Below, in pieces: positions 3,224 through 18,134 of a DNA stretch of 38,440 nt. The notes below the pieces were generated by a model. It had not been told where the DNA came from. It worked only from the letters and a program-made list of their open reading frames with translations, and did no database searches. Origin of the DNA: a virus. The position numbers and the translations under genes were made by a program. The DNA is taken from positions 1 to 38,440 of the IMG/VR virus record IMGVR_UViG_3300036045_000036. The stretch is one strand, 5' to 3'. Each line of letters starts with the position of its first letter. The first letter of the stretch is position 1.

Positions 3224-3502
3224 TTACTGCCTTTCCAGCACGAGGCGCTTTTCGAGTTCGTCTGGCGCCACCGGCTCGATCGCGCGCACGACGTAGCTGA
3301 CACCAGCGCGCGCGACCGTGGCGCCGACCGCCACCGCAGCAATGTCCGACGCGCGGCACCGCAGCGCCGGCGCCGTGCTCTGGACATCCAGCGCGGCGAT
3401 GTACCCGCCGTCGAAGATCGCCGTAACCGGCGAGCCGGCGATGGTCACCGGCTCGCCGAACTGGGCGTAGATCAGCGCCAGCGAGGGCGTGAAGTCGATC
3501 AT
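3224..3502 (-). CDS. Head-tail connector, FII-like
   Basis: 92 residues. The sequence has the small beta-barrel pattern of lambda gpFII-type head-tail joining proteins: AIFDGGY near residue 30, then PALRCRASDI, a GATV turn, and YVVRAIEPVAPDELEKRLVLE at the end. The protein would cap the connector at the tail-binding face of the filled head. Its ATG (3502) overlaps the TGA of the methyltransferase/glycosyltransferase gene (ATGA), so it is probably translationally coupled to that foreign-looking gene. A longer open frame upstream is a shadow. Confidence 0.75.
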   Translation of the reverse strand: MIDFTPSLALIYAQFGEPVTIAGSPVTAIFDGGYIAALDVQSTAPALRCRASDIAAVAVGATVARAGVSYVVRAIEPVAPDELEKRLVLERQ

Positions 3503-5046
3503 GCGGCCTTCTTCGGCAGCAGGTTGCGGCCGCGCAGGTGGTCGAGAATCAGCTCCGCGATCGGCTCCGGCCGCGCCATCGCCTGGCAGGCGCTGGCGCC
3601 TGTGACGGTATCGCGCGCGCAGAAAGCGAAGTCCTGCCCGTGCACCCGGTGGCACGGGTGGCAGGCCAGGCCATGCGGCTCGATGCTGGCGCAGTTGAGC
3701 CAGTCGCGCGTCAGGTTCTCCACGCTGCTGTGGCTGAGCGTGATCACCTTGAGCACCGGCTCGAACGCCACCGCGTTGGCGATGACGCTTTCAGTGGCCA
3801 CCACCGCATCGGCCCGCAGGGCATAGGTCATCGAGATCCGCAGCGGCCAGTCCATGCCGACGACGTGGCCGTACTCCTCGACGCCTTCCAGCCGCGGGTC
3901 GCGGATGTCGCCCAGCGCGACGGTGTGCACGCCATGCTCGGCCAGCAGTTCCATCAGCCGTTGCGTGTGCGGCCAGTACTTGACCGGGCCGCTGCCGGCC
4001 GGGTTGACCACCACCACCGGCCCGTCGAGTACCGCGCGCAGCCTCTCGGCGGTCTCGATCTCGGTGGCCGTGGGGTAGAACTTCTGCCGCGCCGGCCGGC
4101 CCTCCAGCCCCGCCCACTCGTGGACGGTGTCCAGGTAGTTGCGGTTCATCAGCTTGTGTCGCAGCTGATGCGGCAGGAAGAACCGCACCTCGTTCGGGTG
4201 CGGCAGCAGGTTGGTCTCCACGCTGCCCACCAGGTTCACCCAGCGGTCGAACTTGACGGCCTCGTGCGCGTAGAAGCGCAGCAGTTCGTCGTCCGTCAGT
4301 GTGTGATTGCGCAGGGCGATCAGGCGGTCGATGTGCGGGTCGTGGCGCAGCACTTCGGCGCCGCCCGGCACGGTGTAGACCGTGACGTGATAGCCGTCTT
4401 CCTTCAGGTGCGCGCAGACGCTGCTCGCCCACAGCGCATCGCCGTGGCCGCCCAGTCGCACCACGCCGGCGGCCTTAGCGGGCCGCTCGGCGATGTCGAA
4501 CACATGACCATGGCCGGCGAGTTCCTTGCGGAACACCAGCAGGAAGCTGTATTCGCGGCCGGCGTCGCGCGTCTGGTTCTCCAGCAGCGTCCAGTCGGGC
4601 GCGACGTCCTCCATCGCGTCGATGATGTCGTCGGGCACAAAGTCGTGCCGGTGGTCCGGGTTGGCCCCGGGCTGCCCGATGTTCGGATACAGGTCGCGGT
4701 GCGGCAGGTACAGCACCAGGTGTCCGCCCGGCCGCACCAGGCGCCACCATTCCGAAAGCGCCGCGCGCGTGTCGTCGATGTGCTCCAGCGTGTGGCTGCT
4801 GAACACGGCGTCGAACGCATCGTCGCCGAAAATCGGCATGCGCGCCGCGTCGGCGACCACGAGGTCCGGCTTCATCGGAATGCCGAACAACGCCTGCTCG
4901 CGCAGGGAATCCACGCCGATGGCGTGCGGCCACAGCTTGCTCGGGCCACAGCCGATGTCGAGCAGACTGCCCATGGTGTAGGGCAGCACGTCGAAGCGCA
5001 CTTTCGCCGCTTCGTTGCCTTGCGGGTCTTCCGCTTTCCAGACCAT
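3499..5046 (-). CDS. Bifunctional SAM methyltransferase - GT9 glycosyltransferase fusion
   Basis: 515 residues from the ATG at 5046, chosen because GGGGA lies 6 bases upstream; an in-frame GTG at 5079 lacks such a site. N-terminal half: class I SAM-dependent methyltransferase (Methyltransf_11 type) with motif I LLDIGCGPSKLW, an acidic motif II, VVADAARMP, and FDAVFSSHTLEHIDD followed by LVRPGGHLVLYLPH. C-terminal half: GT-B fold of the ADP-heptose/GT9 type, starting VVRLGGHGDALWASSVCAHL, with the donor-site loop VVNPAGSGPVKYWP and a Cys-rich end (CHPCHRVHG, then more Cys). The gene lies inside the morphogenesis operon, between capsid and head-tail connector. A virion-glycan role or surface-polysaccharide modification is inference; the substrate is unknown. 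Confidence 0.85.
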   Translation of the reverse strand: MVWKAEDPQGNEAAKVRFDVLPYTMGSLLDIGCGPSKLWPHAIGVDSLREQALFGIPMKPDLVVADAARMPIFGDDAFDAVFSSHTLEHIDDTRAALSEWWRLVRPGGHLVLYLPHRDLYPNIGQPGANPDHRHDFVPDDIIDAMEDVAPDWTLLENQTRDAGREYSFLLVFRKELAGHGHVFDIAERPAKAAGVVRLGGHGDALWASSVCAHLKEDGYHVTVYTVPGGAEVLRHDPHIDRLIALRNHTLTDDELLRFYAHEAVKFDRWVNLVGSVETNLLPHPNEVRFFLPHQLRHKLMNRNYLDTVHEWAGLEGRPARQKFYPTATEIETAERLRAVLDGPVVVVNPAGSGPVKYWPHTQRLMELLAEHGVHTVALGDIRDPRLEGVEEYGHVVGMDWPLRISMTYALRADAVVATESVIANAVAFEPVLKVITLSHSSVENLTRDWLNCASIEPHGLACHPCHRVHGQDFAFCARDTVTGASACQAMARPEPIAELILDHLRGRNLLPKKAA

Positions 5047-7109: not shown

Positions 7110-7616
7110 CTAGTGGATCGTCACAAAAGTGGCGATCGCGTCTTCGTCCTGCTTGCGCCTTGAACGGCGCCGCGGTGGTGTGAGAATCGGAAAACCGCCT
7201 GACCACGGCGCCTCGGGTACTTCCTCACCGCCGCTGTCGAGTGTGGCTTCCGCCTGCGCGCTCGCCACGGCATCGCCGGCGAGCTCAATGCCGACATCAA
7301 GGGCGGCGTCGCCGCTCGCGCCGGCGAGCGCGTCGCCCCCCAGTTCAACACCGACATCGAGAACACCATCGGCTGCGGCACCGGCGATCGCTGCGCCGGA
7401 TAGATCGATGTCGCCGTTGCCGACCGCATCGCCCAGCTCGAAGTCGACCGCGACGAAGGTCGGCCGCGTGTGGGCGGTCAGCGCAAAGTCGATCCCGTCG
7501 AGCGCCAGCGGCGAGTACGCCTGCAGCACCGCGCTCGGGTTGGCGGTATCGGCCGGCGTGAAGACCGCAACGGCGAAGTCGACCTCGTCCAGCGGAGGGA
7601 CGACGTAGGTCGTCAT
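7110..7616 (-). CDS. Alanine-rich repeat protein between capsid and decoration genes
   Basis: 168 residues of unknown function. Residues 1-70 hold strand-like segments (DEVDFAVAVF, DGIDFALTAH, FVAVDFELGD). Residues 70-130 hold three imperfect repeats of about 20 residues: DLSGAAIAGAAADGVLDVG, ELGGDALAGASGDAALDVG, ELAGDAVASAQAEATLD. The C-terminus is basic (PPRRRSRRKQDED). The same repeat type occurs in three other proteins of this genome (11472, 11982 and 14539 genes). The gene overlaps its upstream neighbour by ATGA and precedes the capsid gene by 8 bases, so it is expressed with head proteins. A virion-surface or assembly role is inferred from position only. Confidence 0.7.
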   Translation of the reverse strand: MTTYVVPPLDEVDFAVAVFTPADTANPSAVLQAYSPLALDGIDFALTAHTRPTFVAVDFELGDAVGNGDIDLSGAAIAGAAADGVLDVGVELGGDALAGASGDAALDVGIELAGDAVASAQAEATLDSGGEEVPEAPWSGGFPILTPPRRRSRRKQDEDAIATFVTIH

Positions 7617-8413
7617 TGCATCAGGTACGGCGACCCCGGCGCCGTGTAGTAGGCACCGCCGCTCTCATACTGCACGAACGCGGCGCCGACCTTGCCGGCG
7701 CGGATCGTGGAGGCCCACAGGCCGCCGCCGGCGGTCGTCTTCACTTCGTGCAGGTACGCATTCGTGAGCGCGGTGTCATCGGCCTCGATCACCATGACCT
7801 TGGCACCGTCCAGCGGTGAACCACCGAGCGTCACGGTGCCACTGATGGCGAAAGTATCGATCGAGTCTTCAGCCCAGGAACAGCGTACGGTGTAGTTGGT
7901 CGAGTTTTGCGCGTTGCTGGCCGCAGCGCTCGCAAACACTTTTACCAGCAGCGCCTCACCAGGTCGCACCGTCAGGTTGGTCGATGACGATGTAAATGGC
8001 ATCAGGTTACGCTCGGCGATCCTTTCAGAATCGCGCTCCGCGTTTTGCTGCTCGACCGCCGTATGCATGCGGCCGGCCAGTTGCGCCCATAGCGTGTCGC
8101 CTGCGGTGGCCGTGATGAGCGCGACCTCGTTATTCTGCGACCTGAAAACGACGTTGGCGTCCGAGGTCTGCGTCGTATCGAAACTCGCCTTGTGCAGCGT
8201 CACACCTCCGCTGACCGCCGTGCATCGACAAGTCCGCACAATGTTCTGCACCGACGTCAGCGCCACCAGTGAATCGCACCCGAAGGTCAGGCGATTGATG
8301 ATGACGTTGACCCGCGACTTGAAGCCGTTTTCGATGACAAACAGATTCTGCGTCGTCGCGTCGTTTCCGACGATCGACAACGATTCTGCTGTGCCTCGAA
8401 ATACAACGGCCAT
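7613..8413 (-). CDS. Putative virion decoration protein with Ig-like C-terminal domain
   Basis: 266 residues. The first 190 residues are paralogous to the next gene upstream (8414-8947): both carry ATTQNL(F/L).IEN near residue 20, a TLAKG/TLHKASFDT segment, an ATAGD..W stretch followed by HTAV, and LLV.... near the end. Beyond that, this copy has an extra domain, TFAISGTVTLGGSPLDGAKVMVIEADD, ending YYTAPGSPYLMQ. It resembles carboxypeptidase-regulatory/Ig-like domains found on virion surfaces. It starts one base after the paralog's stop. The lambda D slot suggests head decoration, but no lambda D similarity is visible. The base composition is less GC-rich than the neighbours. Confidence 0.72.
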   Translation of the reverse strand: MAVVFRGTAESLSIVGNDATTQNLFVIENGFKSRVNVIINRLTFGCDSLVALTSVQNIVRTCRCTAVSGGVTLHKASFDTTQTSDANVVFRSQNNEVALITATAGDTLWAQLAGRMHTAVEQQNAERDSERIAERNLMPFTSSSTNLTVRPGEALLVKVFASAAASNAQNSTNYTVRCSWAEDSIDTFAISGTVTLGGSPLDGAKVMVIEADDTALTNAYLHEVKTTAGGGLWASTIRAGKVGAAFVQYESGGAYYTAPGSPYLMQ

Positions 8414-8947
8414 CTAGTCTTCTTCCCAGCACACGTTGACGACATAGTGATTCGTCGCGGGGTTGGACGTGCCGGCCGCCGCAACGATGTGCACCAGCAG
8501 CGCCTGGTTTTGCCGCAGCACGAAGTTCTGCGTATCGACAATGATCGGCAGCATCGACATATCCGGGGCGAGCACCTGCCCGACGGCGGTGTGGATGCGG
8601 GTCATGAACCGCTCCCACACGACGTCGCCCGCCGTTGCCGTTGGCCCGGAATTTGCGCCGCCGTCCGAGGCCGTCGAGCCGCGCACGATGGTGTTCGCGT
8701 TCGATGAGGCGCTCGTGTCGAACAGCCCTTTGGCCAGCGTCGTGCCGCCGGTCGGCACGCCCGTGGTGCGCGAGGTCTTGAACAGCGGCGAGACGGCCGT
8801 CAGCACGGCCGTGGTGTCCATCTGCACCGTCAGGCGGCGGATCCAGACCAGCTTGGTCGAATCGATGTTCTCGATCGTCAGCAGGTTCTGCGTCGTGGCC
8901 GCGTTGCCGACCTGCCGGAACGTCGATGCTGAGAAGAAACCGGCCAT
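8414..8947 (-). CDS. Putative virion decoration protein (short paralog)
   Basis: 177 residues (MAGFFSASTFRQVGNAATTQNLLTIEN...), paralogous to the N-terminal 190 residues of the downstream gene and probably the older copy of a tandem duplication. It has no signal peptide or membrane segment; it is predicted beta-rich, with Thr/Ser-rich loops. It terminates with TAG, one base before the next ATG. It follows the portal gene by 15 bases in the head cluster. Function is not known; a head-surface or connector-associated role is inferred from position. Confidence 0.7.
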   Translation of the reverse strand: MAGFFSASTFRQVGNAATTQNLLTIENIDSTKLVWIRRLTVQMDTTAVLTAVSPLFKTSRTTGVPTGGTTLAKGLFDTSASSNANTIVRGSTASDGGANSGPTATAGDVVWERFMTRIHTAVGQVLAPDMSMLPIIVDTQNFVLRQNQALLVHIVAAAGTSNPATNHYVVNVCWEED

Positions 8948-8962
8948 TCAGGAACTCGCTTT

Positions 8963-10873
8963 CTAGTTGTATTCGGTCGTGCTCTTGATGAGATCCCCGG
9001 CGCTGTTGCGCTCGTGGACGGTGACGCTGTTCTGCTGCCGCAAGGTAGCCTCGACCTCGATCTCCGGCTGCACGTCGACGTTGACGATCGGCGCGGAGAC
9101 GTTGACGATCGGCGCCTGCCCCGGCTCGATGCGAACTTCCGCCGGCTCGATGGTCGCCTCGAGATTCACCTGCGGCGCCTCGACGTTGACGATCGGTGCT
9201 GGCAGGTTGATGACGGTCGGCTCGACACGCACCTGCGGCGCCTCGACGCTGACCTGCGTGGGCTGCGGCGGCAGGTTGTTGATGACCACGCGCGGCGCCT
9301 CGGCGGCACGCTCGGCGGCGCGCACGCGGCGCTCCTCCAGGTCGTCGGCCTTGGCCTTGTCTTCATCGCTCGGCTGCGCCGGCGCGGCGGGCTTCTGCGG
9401 CGCGGCTTCCAGGCCGCTCGCCTTCATCAGCGCTTCTTCCTCGGCCAGTTCGTCGAGGATGTCTTCGATGGCGCGGCCCTGCGCGGCGGCGATCTGGCGG
9501 CGGCTGGCGAGCCGCGCGTCGATCAGCGCCTGGCTGGCCTGCGCATCTTTCAGCGGATCGACCCAGTCCCAGCGCCGGCCCTGAAAGGTGCCGGCGTCGG
9601 CGAACTTGCCGAGCCGCTCAGCCGACAGCCGGCTGCCGGACTCGAAGGTGATGGCGCCCAGCGGCAGCGCGGCCTCGAGCCAGTCGCGGTACAGCGGCAG
9701 CAGGAAGCTGTCGATCAGCCATTCCTGCAGGGTGATCCACATTTCGCGCGTCTCGATGGTGCCGGCGCGGATGCTGCTGTAGTTGACGCCCTCGAGGTCG
9801 TTGCTGAGGGTGGAGTAGTCGACATCGAGGCCGCTCGCCATGCCGCGCAGGCAGGTCTTGACGAAGCTGTCGAAGTTCTCGTGCGGATAGTCCGGGTCCC
9901 AGGTCTTGAGATCGACACCGGGATGGCCGGTCAGGTCGATAAACTCGCCGGGCTCGGCGCTCATGCTGATGCCGCCGGTGGCCGGGTCTTCCTCGCCGAG
10001 GTCGGTCTTCGGCACCGCGTCGGCGTTCTCGCCGGCGGTGAAGATGCCCATCTTGGCCGCACCGACGCGGGCGGCGATGATGGCGGCTTCTTCGTAGCCC
10101 TGCAGCATGGCGGCGCGCATCAGCACGGCGTGCATCCAGCTGTAGCCGCGCACCTGCTCGGCGCGCTCGGGCACGAACAGGTGGTAGATCTCGTTCGCGG
10201 GCACGCGCTCGACGTCGATCTTGAGCTTGCCGCCGTAGCTTTCGCCGGGGTGCCAGGTCTTGAGCCAGTAGGCGACCGGCCGCAGGGCGCTGTCGATCTC
10301 CACGCCCTGGCGGATCATGTTGCCGTTGGCGAGCAGCTTGTTGATGGACTCGTCGAGCCGGTCGGCCTCGAGCAGCTGCAGCTGCAGGCCATAGGGCGCG
10401 CGGCGATTCGTGACCTTGCGGACGATGGCCTCGCCGTCGCGCGCCACGGCCTTGACGGCCACCCGCAGCAGTTGCGTGAGCGTGCTGCGGCCGGCGAGGT
10501 CTGCGCTGCGGCCGAAGCGCGCCCAGTGCGCCTCGATGGCGGCGTTGCCCGGGATGTCGAGCGACGGCACGGTGCCGACCTTGGTCGGCACGTTCTTGGC
10601 CCGCACCTGCAGCGTGGGGCCGTAGGCGCCGATCAGGTTGGTGGCCACCATGCTCAGGAAGCGGCGGCCATACTCGTGGTTCTGGCACAGGTGCCGCGCA
10701 CGCGCGCGCAGGGTGGTGAGCGCGGTGTCGAGGTCGGCATTGATGGCGTTGCTGTAGCCGGGCAGCGACAGCGTGAGCCGCGTGTTCTGCGCGCCGGCGA
10801 AACCGCGCCGGCCGGCAGGCGCAACCGCGGGCGCACGAAACGCGCGCCAGGCCCGCTGCACTCGCTCGAACAT
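8963..10873 (-). CDS. Portal protein, gpB-like, with long beta-repeat C-terminal tail
   Basis: 636 residues. The core matches lambda-type portals (Phage_portal_2): NADLDTALTTLRARARHLCQNHEYGRRFLSMVATNLIG near the start, then ISMSAEPGEFIDLTGHPGVDLKTWDPDYPHENFDSFVKTCLRGMASGLDVDYSTLSNDLEGVNYSSIRAGTIE in separate blocks. Portals form the 12-fold ring at one capsid vertex through which DNA enters and leaves. Residues about 528-620 form an unusual tail of alternating Val/Ile strands with EAP/EP turns (VSVEAPQVRVEP, VNVEAPQVNLEA, PIVNVSAPIVNV). The start ATG overlaps the stop of the gpW-like gene. Confidence 0.92.
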   Translation of the reverse strand: MFERVQRAWRAFRAPAVAPAGRRGFAGAQNTRLTLSLPGYSNAINADLDTALTTLRARARHLCQNHEYGRRFLSMVATNLIGAYGPTLQVRAKNVPTKVGTVPSLDIPGNAAIEAHWARFGRSADLAGRSTLTQLLRVAVKAVARDGEAIVRKVTNRRAPYGLQLQLLEADRLDESINKLLANGNMIRQGVEIDSALRPVAYWLKTWHPGESYGGKLKIDVERVPANEIYHLFVPERAEQVRGYSWMHAVLMRAAMLQGYEEAAIIAARVGAAKMGIFTAGENADAVPKTDLGEEDPATGGISMSAEPGEFIDLTGHPGVDLKTWDPDYPHENFDSFVKTCLRGMASGLDVDYSTLSNDLEGVNYSSIRAGTIETREMWITLQEWLIDSFLLPLYRDWLEAALPLGAITFESGSRLSAERLGKFADAGTFQGRRWDWVDPLKDAQASQALIDARLASRRQIAAAQGRAIEDILDELAEEEALMKASGLEAAPQKPAAPAQPSDEDKAKADDLEERRVRAAERAAEAPRVVINNLPPQPTQVSVEAPQVRVEPTVINLPAPIVNVEAPQVNLEATIEPAEVRIEPGQAPIVNVSAPIVNVDVQPEIEVEATLRQQNSVTVHERNSAGDLIKSTTEYN

Positions 10874-11475
10874 CAGAACCTCGTCCCGATCAGGCGGTTA
10901 GTCTTCAGGCCGCGCGCGACGCGGGCTTCGTTCTGCTCGCGCGCGACGTCCAGTTCGGCGCGGTTGATTGCCTTGATGAGGCCGGCCAGCGCCACGTCGA
11001 GGTTGTCGTACTTGACCATGCGGTCGCCGATGCGGTATTCCACCGGCAGGCCGGCGCTGCCCTGCGTGCGTGCGCGCTCGCTGGCCGCGGCGAACGCGGC
11101 CTTGAGGTCGTCCAGCGCACGCTGGGCGGACGTGCGGTTATCGAACCCCTGCACCGCCGTGGCGGGGTTCTGCAGGATCTCGAGCTGGCCGCGGCTGTCG
11201 AGGTCGTCGAGCGTGACGCGGGCGCCGCTTTTGTAGACCCAGCGGAACCAGCCATAGGCGCCCGGCAGCCAGCCGGCGGTGGTGTCCGGGCCCTGCAATA
11301 CGGTGTAGTCGTCGCCCGCCGCGGCGGCGTCGAACTCGATCGGCGCCTGGCTCGGGCTGGCAAAGCGCGGCACGAAGCGATAGCGCAGCGTCCAGCCGTC
11401 CGACGGCGGGTAGTCCGCCACGGTGGTGGTGAACTCCAGCGTGTCGCCGGCGTACAGGCGGTCAGGCACGTTCAT
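10873..11475 (-). CDS. Head-tail joining protein with gpW-like C-terminal domain
   Basis: 200 residues. Residues 1-95 form a beta-rich domain (LYAGDTLEFTTTVADYPPSDGWTL...). Residues about 105-175 resemble lambda gpW: a helix (SAQRALDDLKAAFAAAS), the beta hairpin PVEYRIGDRMVKYDNLD, and a second helix (VALAGLIKAINRAEL). It sits directly before the portal and overlaps it by ATGA, as W precedes B in lambda, but gpW itself has only about 68 residues. I read it as a fusion of an extra N-terminal domain onto a gpW-type connector. Start ATG at 11475. Confidence 0.68.
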   Translation of the reverse strand: MNVPDRLYAGDTLEFTTTVADYPPSDGWTLRYRFVPRFASPSQAPIEFDAAAAGDDYTVLQGPDTTAGWLPGAYGWFRWVYKSGARVTLDDLDSRGQLEILQNPATAVQGFDNRTSAQRALDDLKAAFAAASERARTQGSAGLPVEYRIGDRMVKYDNLDVALAGLIKAINRAELDVAREQNEARVARGLKTNRLIGTRF

Positions 11476-11969
11476 GCGGTTCCTCGTCCAATGCGGCGCG
11501 GCGTTCCGGCCACGGCCTTGCCACGCCCCACGCGGCGGCGCCCGCCACCGATCGACACGGCCGGCACCGGCAGGCCGATACTGAGATCGCCGGCACCGTA
11601 GGCGCTGGCGAAGGCGTCGCCTTCGAGCACCTGCACCGCCAGCAGCGTGCCGGCCGCCTGCGCACGCGCGGTGGCGGCACCGCCGAGCAGCTGGCCGACG
11701 GTGAGCGTGCCGCTGGCCTGCGCGCCGGCGACGGCATCGACCCGCATGGGGCCGGTCTGCTCGAGCGTGCCGGCGGCTTCCGCGCCGGCCACCGCAGCGC
11801 CGGCGAGCTGCCGCGCCTGCTGCCAGGTGAAAGCGCCCGCGATGCCGAGCGAGGCAATGAAGGTCAGCCCCGGCGGGCCGCCCAGTTCGAAGGCGCTGCC
11901 TTCCGCCCAGGTGGCGGCCCATTCGAGGTCGACGCCGTCCCAGGTCTGCTGCCAGTCCAGGCGTGCCAT
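11472..11969 (-). CDS. Alanine-rich repeat protein, putative virion component
   Basis: 165 residues, unknown function. The short N-terminal part is Trp-rich (LDWQQTWDGVDLEWAATWAEG). Residues about 52-130 hold four repeats of about 20 residues (QLAGAAVAGAEAAGTLEQ, RVDAVAGAQASGTLTVG, LLGGAATARAQAAGTLLAV, LEGDAFASAYGAGDLSIG). The C-terminus is Gly/Arg-rich (GGGRRRVGRGKAVAG). It shares its repeat with the proteins at 7110, 11982 and 14539. It overlaps the gpW-like gene start by ATGA, so it is expressed with the connector genes. No known domain is visible. Confidence 0.7.
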   Translation of the reverse strand: MARLDWQQTWDGVDLEWAATWAEGSAFELGGPPGLTFIASLGIAGAFTWQQARQLAGAAVAGAEAAGTLEQTGPMRVDAVAGAQASGTLTVGQLLGGAATARAQAAGTLLAVQVLEGDAFASAYGAGDLSIGLPVPAVSIGGGRRRVGRGKAVAGTPRRIGRGTA

Positions 11970-11981
11970 GCGGTCCCTCGG

Positions 11982-13085
11982 TTACAGGCTGGTCAGCGTG
12001 GCGATGGCCGGGCCGCCGCGCATGTTGACGGTCGCGGTGTTGTCGTTGTAGTTGTGCACGAAGGCGAAGGCCTTGGCGCCGATGGTGCCGATACCCGGAA
12101 TGTCGACGAACCCGCCCGCGACGACGGCCGCCCCCTGCGCCAGGATGGCGTAGGTGGGGCTGGCGCCGGAGAACACGGTGGCGTGCACCGCCGTGCCGTT
12201 GGGCGCGTTGGTGGGGATCCTCCACACCGACGAGAAGGCCGTCAGCGTGGCACTGCCAAGCGCCGCGCCGATGGCCGCGCCGGTCAGTGCACGGTTGATG
12301 CTGAGCGTGCCGCTGGCTAGCGCCCCGGCCACCGCAGCGGCGGCGAGGTTGCGCTGGACGGCGAGCGTGGCCGAAGCGGTGGCGCCGGCGGTGGCGGAGC
12401 CGGCAAGGTCGACACCGCTTGAGAGCGGCCCTTCGGTGCCGCCGACCAGCGAAATTCCGAGCGCCATCCATGACGACGAACCGCCAGAACTATCCCACTC
12501 AGGATCGTAGGTTCCGGTACTCGTGACCTGTTTCGATATTGCGCCGGCGTGCAGGTTAGTCGCGCCGGTGCCTATCAACTGGTCCTGCGTCCACCCGGTG
12601 CTGGCCGCGAACTCTCGCTCGTGCGCGACCCGGTTGCACATACACGCCAGAAACAGCTGCTCAGCATTCGTCGTTGCATCGAAGTTCAGCGGCGACATGT
12701 CCGCGCTGAATCCAGACGTCTGCCAGATGTGCCCGAGCTTCTCATACAGCGTCGAGCTATTCCAGGAGGCTATCTCGTATGCGACCAGCAGCAGATGGTC
12801 GCTGCCGGCGGCCGGTGTCGCGGTGATCGTGAAACTGCCCGACGACGTGGTCGCCGGCGCGGTGTAAAGCCGGCCCCACACAAAATCGGTGCCGTAGCCT
12901 TCCTGGTCACGATTTGTGTAAGTGTTGCTTTGGTTGTCAGCGACCGTTGGATAGCCGTCGTCGGCAAAGACAAACACAACAATCAGGCGGCCGACCCCGG
13001 GCGTGGAGTCGAAAGTCAATCCGAGCGAAGCGACTTCGCCAGAACTGTAGGCCAGCTTGCTTTGAACGATGCTCGGGGCCGCCAT
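11982..13085 (-). CDS. Putative virion-surface adhesin with central alanine repeats
   Basis: 367 residues. Residues 1-215 look like a jelly-roll or carbohydrate-binding-type domain common on extracellular proteins (GRLIVVFVFADDGYPTVADN, then SGSFTITATPAAGSDHLLLVAYEIA, with conserved Cys-Met-Cys in LFLACMCN). Residues about 222-285 hold three alanine repeats (VDLAGSATAGATASATLAV, NLAAAAVAGALASGTLSIN, ALTGAAIGAALGSATLTAF). A C-terminal beta domain follows, ending GGPAIATLTSL. The N-terminal domain is noticeably less GC-rich than the repeat and C-terminal parts, suggesting a swapped cargo domain. It is probably virion-exposed, from position and composition; its ligand is unknown. Confidence 0.65.
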   Translation of the reverse strand: MAAPSIVQSKLAYSSGEVASLGLTFDSTPGVGRLIVVFVFADDGYPTVADNQSNTYTNRDQEGYGTDFVWGRLYTAPATTSSGSFTITATPAAGSDHLLLVAYEIASWNSSTLYEKLGHIWQTSGFSADMSPLNFDATTNAEQLFLACMCNRVAHEREFAASTGWTQDQLIGTGATNLHAGAISKQVTSTGTYDPEWDSSGGSSSWMALGISLVGGTEGPLSSGVDLAGSATAGATASATLAVQRNLAAAAVAGALASGTLSINRALTGAAIGAALGSATLTAFSSVWRIPTNAPNGTAVHATVFSGASPTYAILAQGAAVVAGGFVDIPGIGTIGAKAFAFVHNYNDNTATVNMRGGPAIATLTSL

Positions 13086-13087
13086 TG

Positions 13088-13396
13088 CTACACCGTGACG
13101 TCGAACTTCTGGCGGTCACTGATGCCCTGGGCACAGGCGTCCGCGTAGTTGAAGATGCATCGCCATTCGGCGCCGCGCTCGTGCAGTGGAACGAAGGTAT
13201 GCCAGCGCGGCGCCGGAATCAGCAAGAAGTCGCCGCGATCAAGCGTGACACTGCCGGCGCTGCCGTCAGGGTCGCGCCAGTCGATGCGAACTGGGCCGCG
13301 CGTAATGACAGTAAGGTGATCGACCCAGTGTTGATGACCGTCGAACTGACTCCCGAAGTCAGCCACGATTTGCCTGACGCTCCAGTTTTCGGTCAT
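13088..13396 (-). CDS. Small cupin-fold protein
   Basis: 102 residues from the ATG at 13396, which overlaps the upstream stop (ATGA); a longer frame to 13459 has no ribosome site. It shows both cupin motifs: FDGHQHWVDHLTVITRG (H-x-H, metal-binding half one) and GDFLLIPAPRWHTFVPL (half two with the expected His). This is a single-domain cupin with a probable metal site. Cupins bind or modify small molecules and sugars, or act as plain scaffolds, so no substrate can be named. Its place inside a virion-surface cassette, between a beta-propeller and an adhesin-like gene, is unusual. Confidence 0.72.
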   Translation of the reverse strand: MTENWSVRQIVADFGSQFDGHQHWVDHLTVITRGPVRIDWRDPDGSAGSVTLDRGDFLLIPAPRWHTFVPLHERGAEWRCIFNYADACAQGISDRQKFDVTV

Positions 13397-14538
13397 GGTT
13401 TGTAGAGCCACGCGCTGATGTCGTTGCCGAAATAGTAGGGCGTCGAACCGAGCACCCACACGACGCCATAATCGTCGATCGGCACGACAATGAATGGCTT
13501 GCGATGGTTGCTGGTGTTAAGCGGCGCCGGCATCACCCCTAGATCCGTCCACACGCCTGCATCGCTGCAGCGGTAGTGCCTTCCGTTATTTGCGAAGTAC
13601 AGCCAGCCGCTTCCAGATGGGTCTTTGCACAGGTGCGAGTCGTAGGTCGTGTTGAACGAAGACGGCGGCGTGCCGGTCAAGGTCGCGGCAGGCGTGCCGG
13701 TGGTGTTGATGATGCACGCGGCCGTATCCGCTCGACCGCACAAGACGGCGCCGTCGCCCCCAAGGGCGCGCGGGTTGAAACTCATCGGCAGCGACGATCC
13801 GGTCGCGCTGCCAAGGTTGCCGCCAGTGGCCAGCGTTGTCCATGTTCCGGGCGTGGTCAGATCCATCTGCCACAGCACCATCTGCGTGCCATTACTGCCA
13901 AAGCACCACATGGAGCCGACGGCGCCGCGATTGACAATGTCCAATGCCCCGGTGCGCAGCGACGAGGCTTGCGGCGCTGACGCGACGCCGTCAATCCACG
14001 CGCCGGTGTCGAGGTCGTATGCAAGAATGAGGTTTTCGCTGAATTTCTGCTTGTAGAATCGACGCCCTGCGACATCTATGCAGAGGCTGTCGTATAAGTG
14101 GACGATGCCGTTGGTGTTGCTTTCGTTCGGCGACTGAAAACCACGACTGACCGTCCACTTGCCGGCATTAAGGCCGGTTTCGTGATAGATCGGCTGTGTG
14201 TTCTTCAGGTATCCGCCGGGGCCATTAAATCCAGCTCCCGTTGAGGCCCACATCACCTTCTTGGTCGTGGGGTCGTAGCAGCCTTTCGCGCCCCAGTCGA
14301 TCGCCGTGTGCGCGGCGCCCGCGTTGTCTTCCGGCGGCTGTGTGCCATCGGATGGCGTCGGATACTTCCACCCGCCGACCTGCGTGGCTGCAGCACGATC
14401 CGCCGATAATGTTGCGGCGTGGCCATAGAACTCGGTCCAGCCGCTGCCCGCAGACTGGGCCTTCTGCTGAAGGACAGAATTTGTGACCGCAATGGTGACG
14501 GCAGTGCTGACCGCCCTGCGTGGCGCCACGTAGCGCAT
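13393..14538 (-). CDS. Beta-propeller-like virion protein
   Basis: 381 residues, without recognisable repeats of the alanine type. The sequence shows kelch/beta-propeller-like units: hydrophobic strand pairs with Trp near turns (CYDPTTKKVMWASTG, LNAGKWTVSRGF, LILAYDLDTGAWIDG, MVLWQMDLTTPGTW, PSGSGWLYFANNG, YRCSDAGVWTDLG, YGVVWVLGSTPYYFG). Six or seven blades are plausible. Galactose-oxidase-like folds on virions often bind host glycans. Its stop overlaps the cupin start and it starts one base past the end of the large lyase-like gene. The call is by pattern only. Confidence 0.62.
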   Translation of the reverse strand: MRYVAPRRAVSTAVTIAVTNSVLQQKAQSAGSGWTEFYGHAATLSADRAAATQVGGWKYPTPSDGTQPPEDNAGAAHTAIDWGAKGCYDPTTKKVMWASTGAGFNGPGGYLKNTQPIYHETGLNAGKWTVSRGFQSPNESNTNGIVHLYDSLCIDVAGRRFYKQKFSENLILAYDLDTGAWIDGVASAPQASSLRTGALDIVNRGAVGSMWCFGSNGTQMVLWQMDLTTPGTWTTLATGGNLGSATGSSLPMSFNPRALGGDGAVLCGRADTAACIINTTGTPAATLTGTPPSSFNTTYDSHLCKDPSGSGWLYFANNGRHYRCSDAGVWTDLGVMPAPLNTSNHRKPFIVVPIDDYGVVWVLGSTPYYFGNDISAWLYKP

Positions 14539-17040
14539 TTACTTGTTCCTCGGCCAGCGGTTGAAGCGCGGCGCCGTGCGAAATCCTGTCCGCCATGCGG
14601 CGAAGTCGCTTATGCCGCCGTTCGTGATGACCTTATCCCACGCGGAATCGGAGCCCGGCACGTCGCGCTCGATGGCGGCGCAAAGTGCAGCCCACATCTG
14701 CGCGGGGTAAGACGTACCTGCACTCACCGCTGCGGCAGAGTCGGCCGAAACACCAGACCAATCGGTCGGGGTGCCAGTTATCCACGAACCGGACGCAGGC
14801 GGCAGCGTGCCGGTCATATCCGAGCGCGTCATCGCGCCCCAGTCGCCCGATCCCATATTGATCGTGCCGCCAGTGATGTCTCCAATCGTCAGTGTGTACG
14901 GGTGATACCGCCACTCGCCGCCGGTGGCCTCATTTATGCGGCGCACCACATAGGCGCAGGCTTTGTCTGTCATGGCAGACCAGGCCGCGCCATCGGCGTC
15001 GCGCAGCACCTTGGCCGCGTCCACGAAGTTCCACGCCACCAGGCAGAAGTGCTGCATCCACGGCGCGTGCTGGCAGCGGGCCCGGCCATCGTGGTCGGCG
15101 TTGCTGGTATTGGCTGTCAGACCCCACACCACCGCGAGCGAGTTGTAGGGAGCATCGAGAAATGCGTTATTGACAGCGATGTTCGTTGCCAATGCCGTTC
15201 GATAGTCTGCCTTGCGTGTCGCGTCGGCGTCTGGAGTCAACAGAATCGTGGAGGCATAGGCCCTGGCACGCCAGGCGCGCGACCGCACCTGGTCGAACGA
15301 GTGGCTACCATCGGTGCTGCCAAAGTTGCTGTGGTGCCAGGCAAATTCCTTTTGAGCCATGTCGATAAAGCACGGGCTCGGCCGACACAGGAACGGCACC
15401 AGCGCAACGGCCGGAATGTGCGAGGCATCATTGCTGTTCGGCCCATAGCGGGGTTCGGTCGTCAGTGCAGGCCAGTTGCCGTTGGTGGTGTTCTTGCCTA
15501 AAACCTGAGCGCGCGTCGGAGGTGTTCCGTCCGCATGTCTGAAATGCCAGTTAAGCGACAGGGCCGCCAGCCCGGTCGCCAGAACCGCGCGGCGAGCGTA
15601 AAGATTCCCGCTCGCCAAGTAATCCGACTGGCATTCAGTCCATGGGCCAATTTCTTCGTCATCGCCAGTGCCATCCATCGCCGGCGCGCGCAGGCGGCAC
15701 GTGGCCCACGGCACATACGTGTCCCATGTCTCAGCATACTTGGTGGCGAGGTTCTCTGTTGATGCCTCTGCCGGCTGATAAAACAGCGGCGCGCCTTGCA
15801 AATACGCGATGTCGTGCGTCACCTCCATGCCCGGATCCAGACCGACCCAGGTGGAGCAGTACCATGCGCGAAATGGCTCGTGCCCGCCGGTGTACTTGAC
15901 CGCGCTGTAGCCTTCATCGTAGCGGCGACAGTTTGGAATGTCTGATCCTGCGCCAGGACTACTGACCGTTGCGATGGTGGCGCCGTTGACCTTCACGGTG
16001 GCGCCGGTGTAGGTCTGCGTGCTCGGCGCCGTCACCGTGGCCGCGTTGGCGTTGACTTCGCCGTTTTCTATCACGACCTCAACGAACGCGCGATCGCTGA
16101 CGCCGGCCTTAAAGGCGTGGATGTCGATGATCGCCTTCATCGTGCCGAGCCCGCAGCCGAGCACGTAGCGGCAGCAGATGGTGGCGCTGTTGGCCCACCA
16201 GGTGCGCGCCGGCGAAGTGAAGTCGCTGAGCGTCTGATCGCCGCCGCCGAAGTTGACGACGATGTCACTGACGATGGCGTCGATGCGGCTGGCGGTCAGC
16301 GCCGTGCCGCTTGGCGCGCCTGGCCGCAACCGGATGGCCTTGGTCACCGCGTTGGTGACGGCGGTTTCGCCGGCCACGACCATCACCTGTGCGCTGCCGT
16401 CCGGCCAGGTGCTGAGCACACTGCTGCGCAGGTTGGCGTCGTCTGGACTGACGAGGATCTGGCCGCTCGGCACCGCCCCTTCGACCGGATAGACCGTGGC
16501 GTGGTAAGGCAAGGTCGCGGTGACGGTCGGGTGCAGCGTGAGGGTCGGCAGTGCGCCCGGTTCAAAGTACGTGAAGCGGATGGAGTTGGCCGATGTCACC
16601 GCTGACCCACCATCGGACAGCACGCCGCCTTCGCTGAGCGTGATGAGCGTGGGCAGCGCAGTATTCAGCGGGTCCACGCCATACACGCCGCCGGCGGTAT
16701 AGCCAGCCGGGCCCGTGGCCGCCACATTGAAAGTCTCGCCGCCGCCCTGGACGAACGTGATGACCGGCGCCACGGCCCAGCCAAGCGAGGCGGCCGACGT
16801 TGAACCAGCCACCGCCGCCCCCTGCATGCGAATGCCGCGCAGCAGCGCGGCCGTGGCCTGCGCGCTAGCGCTGGCGGCGCCGCCGAGGTTGACCCCGCGC
16901 AGCAGCGCCGCGGCGGCCTGCGCGCTGGCGAGCGCGCTGCCGGCGAGCGGCACGGCGGCGCCCTGGCCGATGACACCGCTGATGGACATCAGCGCGCTCA
17001 GCCGCAGCCGCGGCGGGGCGCGCAGCTTGAAGTCGGACAT
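14539..17040 (-). CDS. Large putative polysaccharide lyase / depolymerase with N-terminal alanine repeats
   Basis: 833 residues. Residues 1-85: a short basic start, then three alanine repeats (VPLAGSALASAQAAAALLRG, VNLGGAASASAQATAALLRG, IRMQGAAVAGSTSAASLG). Residues about 170-330 resemble the RIFT-barrel domain of YetA-like exo-rhamnogalacturonan lyases: PVEGAVPSGQILV, then SVLSTWPDGSAQVMVVAG (the WPDGS motif). The C-terminal 400 residues look helical and Trp/His-rich, consistent with an alpha/alpha toroid (FAWHHSNFGSTDGSHSFDQ, CQHAPWMQHFCLVAWNFVDAAK). An enzyme or binding protein for host surface glycans is the best inference. The body is less GC-rich than the N-terminal repeats, suggesting acquisition of the cargo part. 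Confidence 0.6.
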   Translation of the reverse strand: MSDFKLRAPPRLRLSALMSISGVIGQGAAVPLAGSALASAQAAAALLRGVNLGGAASASAQATAALLRGIRMQGAAVAGSTSAASLGWAVAPVITFVQGGGETFNVAATGPAGYTAGGVYGVDPLNTALPTLITLSEGGVLSDGGSAVTSANSIRFTYFEPGALPTLTLHPTVTATLPYHATVYPVEGAVPSGQILVSPDDANLRSSVLSTWPDGSAQVMVVAGETAVTNAVTKAIRLRPGAPSGTALTASRIDAIVSDIVVNFGGGDQTLSDFTSPARTWWANSATICCRYVLGCGLGTMKAIIDIHAFKAGVSDRAFVEVVIENGEVNANAATVTAPSTQTYTGATVKVNGATIATVSSPGAGSDIPNCRRYDEGYSAVKYTGGHEPFRAWYCSTWVGLDPGMEVTHDIAYLQGAPLFYQPAEASTENLATKYAETWDTYVPWATCRLRAPAMDGTGDDEEIGPWTECQSDYLASGNLYARRAVLATGLAALSLNWHFRHADGTPPTRAQVLGKNTTNGNWPALTTEPRYGPNSNDASHIPAVALVPFLCRPSPCFIDMAQKEFAWHHSNFGSTDGSHSFDQVRSRAWRARAYASTILLTPDADATRKADYRTALATNIAVNNAFLDAPYNSLAVVWGLTANTSNADHDGRARCQHAPWMQHFCLVAWNFVDAAKVLRDADGAAWSAMTDKACAYVVRRINEATGGEWRYHPYTLTIGDITGGTINMGSGDWGAMTRSDMTGTLPPASGSWITGTPTDWSGVSADSAAAVSAGTSYPAQMWAALCAAIERDVPGSDSAWDKVITNGGISDFAAWRTGFRTAPRFNRWPRNK

Positions 17041-17445
17041 TTACACCAGCACCAGCGCGGCCGAAAGGCCCGGCGAACTGACGGAGGTGGCGTCGGCCGG
17101 GATGACGGTGTCGGACAGGATCATGTCCGCGCCGCTGCCGGCCAGGCCGACGCTGCCGGACACCAGCACGACATTGTCCCGGTCGCGCCACTGGATCTTG
17201 CCGATGGTGCCGGGCGTGACGGTGGTGTCGGCCGCCATGGTGTTGGTCTGCGCCTCGGCGACGCTGCCGCCGGGGCTGGTGGCGGCCGCAAAGGCCGGAT
17301 TGCCGAACAGCACCTGCGCCAGTTCGGCGTCGGCCGCGGTGAGCAGGCGGCAGTCGCCGGTGGCGTCGGTGGAGCCGACGTTCAGCTCGGCCAGGGCGCC
17401 GTTCAGCGCGCCGCGGCGGATGCGGTCATGGATGGTCAGGGCCAT
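17041..17445 (-). CDS. Minor virion protein of a widespread phage family (unknown role)
   Basis: 134 residues (MALTIHDRIRRGALNGALAEL...). The C-terminal pattern IGKIQWRDRDNVVLVSGSVG followed by GADMILSDTVIPADATSVS belongs to a family I recall as common near fibre and adhesin genes of siphoviruses, with a short helix first and then beta strands. No catalytic residues are evident. It directly precedes the lyase-like gene, with its stop next to that gene's ATG. Its own start overlaps the end of a 58-residue gene in another frame. Family membership is from memory of the pattern, not alignment. Confidence 0.68.
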   Translation of the reverse strand: MALTIHDRIRRGALNGALAELNVGSTDATGDCRLLTAADAELAQVLFGNPAFAAATSPGGSVAEAQTNTMAADTTVTPGTIGKIQWRDRDNVVLVSGSVGLAGSGADMILSDTVIPADATSVSSPGLSAALVLV

Positions 17446-17612: not shown

Positions 17613-18134
17613 TTACTGCAGCGTGATGGTGAGCGCGCCGGCCGCGAACTGCACGGTGTTGCCGCTCGCTACGGTCTGGTTGGCGGTGAGCGCCGCGCAG
17701 AACAGCATGTTGCCGCTGGTGCTGGCGTCCATCAGCGCCCAGTGCGTGACGGTGCCCGACCAGGTGACCGTGCCCCAGCTGATGGCGTTGTTGTTGCTGG
17801 TGACGCCGCCAGTGCCGCTGGAGGCGGTGGTCGAGCCGGCCGACTGCGTGCCGGCCCAGTTGGCGAGCGAACTGGCGACGCTCTGGCGCGAGTAGTTGCC
17901 GCCGGAAACCTCGGTGCCGCCGCCGGCGTCGTTGCACGCCGCGGTGAACAGCGCCACGTAGCTGGTGGCCGGTGGCGTGAACGACTGGCCGCGCAGCAGC
18001 CAGTCGACGATCTTGTTCTCGAGGTAGTCCGAAAACGCCTGGGCGTGGGCCGGCTGCGGCGCAAGCGATCCGAGCGCCGCGATCGACAGCACGAGGGCCG
18101 CGGAAAGCGACCGGAACTTGTGCAGCAGTTTCAT
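17613..18134 (-). CDS. Virion/fibre-family protein carrying a Sec signal peptide
   Basis: 173 residues. Residues 34-173 belong to the widespread phage family with the pattern ENK..DWLLRG, YVALFTAACNDAGGGTEVSGGNYSRQ, WGTVTHWALMD.. and AAGALTITL, usually annotated as a tail-fibre or virion protein. Unusually, it is preceded by a classic Sec signal peptide: basic start MKLLHKFR, hydrophobic core LSAALVLSIAALGSLA, then PQPAHAQA with AxA cleavage possibilities. Start ATG at 18134 with GGAG nine bases upstream. If the signal works, the product goes to the periplasm or cell surface rather than directly into virions. A longer frame upstream lacks support. Confidence 0.75.
   Translation of the reverse strand: MKLLHKFRSLSAALVLSIAALGSLAPQPAHAQAFSDYLENKIVDWLLRGQSFTPPATSYVALFTAACNDAGGGTEVSGGNYSRQSVASSLANWAGTQSAGSTTASSGTGGVTSNNNAISWGTVTWSGTVTHWALMDASTSGNMLFCAALTANQTVASGNTVQFAAGALTITLQ

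Follow-up and report, generated by a model that had tools for sequence, protein, structure and literature searches.

Four phage proteins sharing an alanine-rich 20-residue repeat are encoded in linkage with a Gp80 fibre bead

We analysed a 38,440-nucleotide stretch of viral DNA (the window; IMG/VR virus record IMGVR_UViG_3300036045_000036, positions 1 to 38,440) in which four minus-strand genes, referred to here by their lower coordinates (7110, 11472, 11982 and 14539), code for proteins sharing an alanine-rich repeat of 20 residues, and in which a co-oriented gene just upstream codes for a fibre bead of the Gp80 family. Repeat genes of this type and gp80 are in near-obligate genetic linkage in both directions, and the 20-residue period is constant beside gp80 although the repeat sequences themselves are unrelated. 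We consider it likely that the four repeat proteins are the cargo-bearing rope of a bead-on-string virion fibre built on Gp80. The features concerned are as follows.

17613..18134, minus strand: Gp80-domain fibre bead, 173 amino acids (Pfam PF23140), with an N-terminal Sec-like signal
14539..17040, minus strand: repeat protein 1, 833 amino acids, with an N-terminal three-repeat module and a large C-terminal cargo
16774..16953, minus strand: three 20-residue repeats of repeat protein 1
14539..16755, minus strand: cargo of repeat protein 1
11982..13085, minus strand: repeat protein 2, 367 amino acids, with an N-terminal cargo, three repeats and a conserved C-terminal domain
12234..12413, minus strand: three 20-residue repeats of repeat protein 2
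11472..11969, minus strand: repeat protein 3, 165 amino acids, mostly repeat, with a basic C-terminal tail
11574..11813, minus strand: four 20-residue repeats of repeat protein 3
7110..7616, minus strand: repeat protein 4, 168 amino acids, mostly repeat, adjoining the protease-major capsid gene
7230..7409, minus strand: three 20-residue repeats of repeat protein 4

The repeat shared by the four proteins

The genes at 7110, 11472, 11982 and 14539 carry three, four, three and three copies of the repeat, respectively, at 20-residue spacing and with the consensus xxLxGAAxAxAxAxGxL; the second copy in gene 11472 has a degenerate start (GPMRVDAVAGAQASGTL). Across the 13 copies, A7 and L17 are invariant, A9 and A11 are each conserved in 12, and L3 and G5 each in 11, and no other open reading frame (ORF) of at least 60 amino acids in the window contains the motif. 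When the repeat-bearing segment alone was shuffled 20,000 times, keeping its alanine-rich composition, the shuffled segments never held more than one motif, as against three observed per gene, confirming that the repeat exceeds what composition explains. The original prediction, made from the DNA letters alone, had proposed these four proteins and these copy numbers, and both stand; its layout of two proteins that are mostly repeat and two with large cargo also holds, with the correction that the repeats precede the cargo in the 14539 protein and follow it in the 11982 protein, which ends in a conserved C-terminal part.

Compared as DNA, the repeat copies are about 60-83% identical. They have a G+C content of 75-80%, and the cargo regions one of 61-64%, a contrast that is uninformative about origin because alanine and glycine codons impose high G+C. 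No Pfam or PHROG model matches any of the four repeat proteins, and the alanine-type arrays of other phages match these databases solely through Laminin_G_3 cargo and through weak, chance-level matches. Searches of cultured phages by DNA and by tblastn returned no close homologues, although the BLAST complexity filter may mask alanine-rich repeats.

The Gp80 protein is readily recognised: it matches PF23140 ("Podophage GP4 fiber I protein gp80") at E=4.5e-43 and 147 bits (cut-off 27), PHROG 240 (head protein), and chain 8jou_a of the Protein Data Bank (PDB) at E=3.2e-16 by phmmer.

Linkage of repeat genes and gp80

The repeat recurs well outside the window, and the lack of recurrence that would have refuted the original prediction was thus not seen. 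We searched IMG/VR and a set of one genome per species for two consecutive repeats, the latter giving just 30 stretches, for the most part from Betaproteobacteria, and built a hidden Markov model (HMM) from the 13 window copies, which was then iterated. The HMM recovered about 100 ORFs bearing the repeat, the longest arrays having 30 copies, and those with at least three copies form 69 clusters at 70% identity, 8 to 12 copies being commonest. The alanine-type repeat is present, in 3-30 copies and with many unrelated cargo domains, in dozens of phages and prophages that are mostly betaproteobacterial. A long N-terminal cargo lies ahead of the array in 37 proteins, falling into 18 groups without mutual BLAST similarity; among 34 cargo segments scanned, seven match Laminin_G_3 and one a Gly-rich domain. 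No single ORF was found in which Gp80 and the repeats are fused.

A gp80 gene lies within 48 of 88 repeat loci, in every case upstream and co-oriented, at a median distance of 1.07 kb, and in none of 80 control loci chosen by their portal genes. Once redundancy had been removed by clustering, 36 repeat clusters had 3 kb or more of sequence upstream, and in 35 of these a same-strand gp80 is found there. The gene is otherwise scarce, with a base rate of 5 in 369 genomes of the class, compared with six of seven genomes picked for their repeats.

The linkage also holds in the opposite direction. We picked loci by gp80 alone (47 nonredundant, 36 of them with at least 4 kb downstream) and called a 20-residue period in same-strand ORFs either from an HMM match or from autocorrelation, with shuffled versions of each protein as the reference. 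Such an ORF is present in 32 of the 36. The alanine-type HMM matches only about nine gp80-picked loci, and the arrays elsewhere are built of other residues. Among non-overlapping ORFs with a significant period at the 47 loci, 37 have their strongest signal at lag 20, and any other lag occurs at most twice. The portal control loci hold a 20-residue ORF in 3 of 80 cases (best lag 20 in 3 of 574 ORFs), and all three ORFs are in L005-L007, the nearest portal relatives of the window. Three of four newly found gp80-bearing bacterial genomes also have a 20-residue ORF, and in the fourth the locus ends at the contig end.

Annotated phages selected by gp80 in which a 20-residue ORF was found, with unrelated repeat sequences, include BcepIL02, Rumpelstiltskin, C72C1 and ctXG6705. 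In BcepIL02, gp56 has about 10 units of 20-22 residues and the neighbouring bead is 58% identical to the 8jou bead. A 1843-residue protein of Slicko01 (L240:8570-14101), which adjoins a weak Gp80-like ORF, is built of Ser/Asp-rich units that keep the 20-residue period (z=8.3) and are not alanine-rich; it may explain the puzzling region of gp34 in the related phage LSH1, discussed below.

Several other periodic arrays were seen at these loci. In L005:278-1855 and L006:4744-6321, a lectin-like N-terminal cargo is joined to an Arg-rich 20-residue array, upstream of the portal gene. A Venkman protein annotated as FhaB-like (L236:9250-11442), encoded near a Gp80 gene, shows very strong periodicity at 17 residues (z about 21), and L302:10422-11414, an ORF located downstream of both a gp80 and the accompanying 20-residue rope, has a 27-residue period (z 15.9).

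Payload replacement at array edges

The window has a syntenic relative, L004, with which it shares TerL at 87%, portal at 77% and Gp80 at 89%. The 14539 protein is 58% identical to its L004 counterpart (L004:6030-8876) over residues 1-86, and past the last repeat the two are unrelated; in L174 this N-terminal module recurs (46%) and leads into a third continuation. The 11982 protein shows the converse arrangement, being 59% identical to L004:8877-9989 from residue 199, just ahead of the first repeat, to its end, with no detectable similarity in the residues before. In these two swaps the exchange boundary coincides with an edge of the array or lies slightly beyond it, on one side or the other, and the comparisons among these genomes indicate that payload replacement occurs at array edges. 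A shared module with exchanged cargo, as the original prediction had it, is therefore upheld. Its proposed route, recombination between the repeats of different genes, finds no support: the best match of 11 of the 13 window repeats is the orthologous L004 array, so each array has descended separately, with breakpoints at its edges.

The lyase-like character that was suggested for the 14539 cargo is a lead. Its distant relatives are bacterial proteins of about 820 amino acids (25-30% identity), which match PcRGLX_1st, a lyase-type RIFT barrel, at E=0.0098 and 0.047, below the cut-off; the cargo itself has no Pfam match, and no PcRGLX match above the cut-off was found.

A proposed bead-on-string model

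GP4 fiber I is reported to consist of an elongated rope protein that joins five dimers of Gp80. PDB entry 8jou contains 10 bead chains, a number consistent with five dimers that agrees with the approximately 10 units of BcepIL02 gp56. The structure is a fibril joining an adhesin to the tail collar of phage GP4 (PMC13243795). The window bead is homologous to that of GP4, although the tail genes of the window phage mark it as a siphovirus and GP4 is a Ralstonia podophage; in addition, the putative rope of the window phage is distributed among four proteins, with cargo that is large and exchangeable, and the window bead has a Sec-like signal. A second parallel is the gp34-gp35-gp36 module of Alishewanella phage LSH1, whose gp36 has an Ig fold and for which a Gp80-like fibril has been proposed to bear a payload protein; its second half, the gp34 region equivalent to the repeats, is an unexplained beta-helix modelled with poor quality (PMC13243795). 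As in that module, the window has a payload protein with a repeat-like region adjoining a Gp80-like protein, the LSH1 payload being depolymerase-like; however, the repeat sequence of the related Slicko01 is unlike that of the window. The neck fibre of the Anabaena myophage A-1(L) (gp80-gp82) is also a bead chain, with a carbohydrate-binding module in its distal component (PMC10966104), but its beads are modelled as gp81 trimers, and the name gp80 is shared with GP4 by coincidence.

Virion data from related phages are in keeping with a fibre. The Gp80 of JC1 (gp53) was detected in virions by mass spectrometry (PMC9144972), the phiM5 (phiM5_17) and BcepIL02 records label Gp80 as virion-associated or detected in the particle proteome, and in BcepIL02 both gp55 and gp56 are labelled virion-associated.

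In the model that we favour, the 20-residue unit would be a short stretch of beta-strand docking on one subunit of Gp80, probably with a single unit for each protomer, and the whole array would run through the beads or decorate them. Sequence outside the repeats (lectin-like, lyase-like or other) would be payload shown on the virion and replaced at the array edges. The usual rope would be a single long protein, commonly of 8-12 units, whereas that of the window phage would be divided over four short proteins with 13 units in total. The earlier suggestion of a virion-attachment module is thereby narrowed to a specific partner, the Gp80 bead, on the strength of gene linkage; we infer binding to Gp80, the geometry of the strands, presence in the virion of this phage and the function of the cargo.

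Several observations weigh against this model. Four of the 36 gp80-picked loci lack a significant periodic ORF, as do several annotated gp80 phages, for example Lietuvens, X1 and Moby. A search of the PDB by sequence matched no chain to the repeat proteins and did not find the GP4 rope, and the mass spectrometry that detected the JC1 Gp80 did not detect its presumed rope, gp54 (PMC9144972). The structural predictions described below yield a regular beta-rich array from the repeats alone, which would suit a self-standing solenoid equally well. The main puzzle left is that a textbook Sec signal sequence (MKLLHKFRSLSAALVLSIAALGSLAPQPAHA) stands at the N-terminus of the window Gp80, which is odd for a virion protein assembled in the cytoplasm.

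A broader reading, on which we are evenly divided, is that the Gp80 fibres of tailed phages follow one structural code, in which any sequence with a beta-strand segment every 20 residues may be strung on beads. The bead would fix the period, the rope sequence would drift, and receptor-binding or depolymerase domains would be plugged on, the lineage of the window phage having divided its rope into several short cargo-bearing strings, an arrangement that could let one virion show several different payloads. If the model is correct, an unannotated repeat provides a rule: beside a Gp80 gene, an ORF with a 20-residue period should be sought, and whatever lies outside its repeats is likely to be a payload with receptor-binding or depolymerase function. 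The rule would lead to many phage adhesins and enzymes that have gone unrecognised, and it gives the bead-on-string model a simple test. The rule may also account for the region that always lies beside a depolymerase-like domain, which was left open in the LSH1 study (PMC13243795).

Structure prediction and alternative explanations

We modelled the 11472 protein with AlphaFold2 as a single chain, using a shallow alignment with 14 relatives. In the model, every 20-residue unit contributes a pair of short strands, exactly in register (60-63/68-71, 80-83/88-91, 100-103/108-111 and 120-123/128-131), with a predicted local distance difference test (pLDDT) score of about 70-76 in the array, low values elsewhere, and a predicted template modelling score of 0.49. 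Foldseek found no match to the repeat model at E<=0.001. Where the original prediction had envisaged solenoid strands, the model gives a regular strand pattern with no similar solved fold; disorder, which would have refuted that prediction, was not seen. As only single chains were modelled, neither a solenoid nor an extended rope is proven. A prediction for the 14539 protein with three bacterial relatives had a mean pLDDT of 30 and was not used.

These models bear most directly on the possibility that the repeats form a free-standing beta-solenoid, a shaft or spacer that holds cargo off the virion, with Gp80 as a neighbouring base or cap that is not threaded. Strands at equal positions in every repeat, the suitability of alternating small residues for a narrow solenoid, and the beta-helix modelled for LSH1 gp34 all speak for it. 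The confidence of the model is nevertheless moderate and its alignment shallow, it resembles no solved fold, and AlphaFold2 readily yields solenoid models for repeats. A solenoid would also leave unexplained why the period is fixed at 20 beside gp80 regardless of sequence, an observation that fits a limit imposed by a partner, and we regard this alternative as unlikely.

We think it very unlikely that Gp80 and the repeat proteins, rather than building a virion fibre, make up an assembly that the lysogen or infected cell secretes or carries on its surface. The idea draws on the Sec-like signals, which are present on the window Gp80 and on 12 of 47 other nonredundant Gp80 proteins (L270, L271, L273, L277, L285, L303-L306, L324, L330 and L347) and are commoner with alanine-type ropes (six of nine) than with others (6 of 38). 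However, most Gp80 genes encode no such signal, the rope N-termini that we inspected have no obvious one, and Gp80 is placed in the particle in JC1, phiM5 and BcepIL02. Least credible of all is that the repeats are low-complexity linkers produced by slippage in GC-rich codons, with the gp80 linkage reflecting no more than a shared tail or head gene neighbourhood: copy number does vary between arrays and the alanine-rich repeats are GC-rich, but the repeated motif is never reproduced by local shuffling, the copies have diverged too far at the DNA level to stem from recent slippage, orthologous positions are kept in L004, Slicko01 holds the period without alanine richness, just three of the 574 control ORFs, all in L005-L007, have a best lag of 20, and the reciprocal test on gp80-selected loci contradicts it.

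Neighbouring genes in the window

The window encodes terminase, portal, head-tail joining, protease-major capsid, major tail, distal tail and J-like genes, a structural set by which the phage is classed as a siphovirus from gene content. One further gene probably belongs to the repeat module.

17041..17445, minus strand: small, conserved gene that separates gp80 from repeat gene 14539 and is a probable part of the module

The order of gp80, the 17041 gene and a repeat gene is kept in the window, in L004 (17041 gene 72% identical) and in L174 (51%), where the Gp80 and 17041 genes likewise precede the gene for the N-terminal module shared with the 14539 protein.

Two genes lie between the repeat genes: 13088-13459 (minus strand), which is cupin-like by a weak Pfam match, and 13393-14538 (minus strand), which codes for a 381-residue protein belonging to no family. 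Both are absent from L004, and the 13393 protein has no similarity to the L004 cargo. Within the structural module, with capsid and tail genes on either side, the gene at 3499-4980 (minus strand) has a weak PHROG match to a methyltransferase and a C-terminal part that reads as glycosyltransferase-like; it is 81% conserved in L004.

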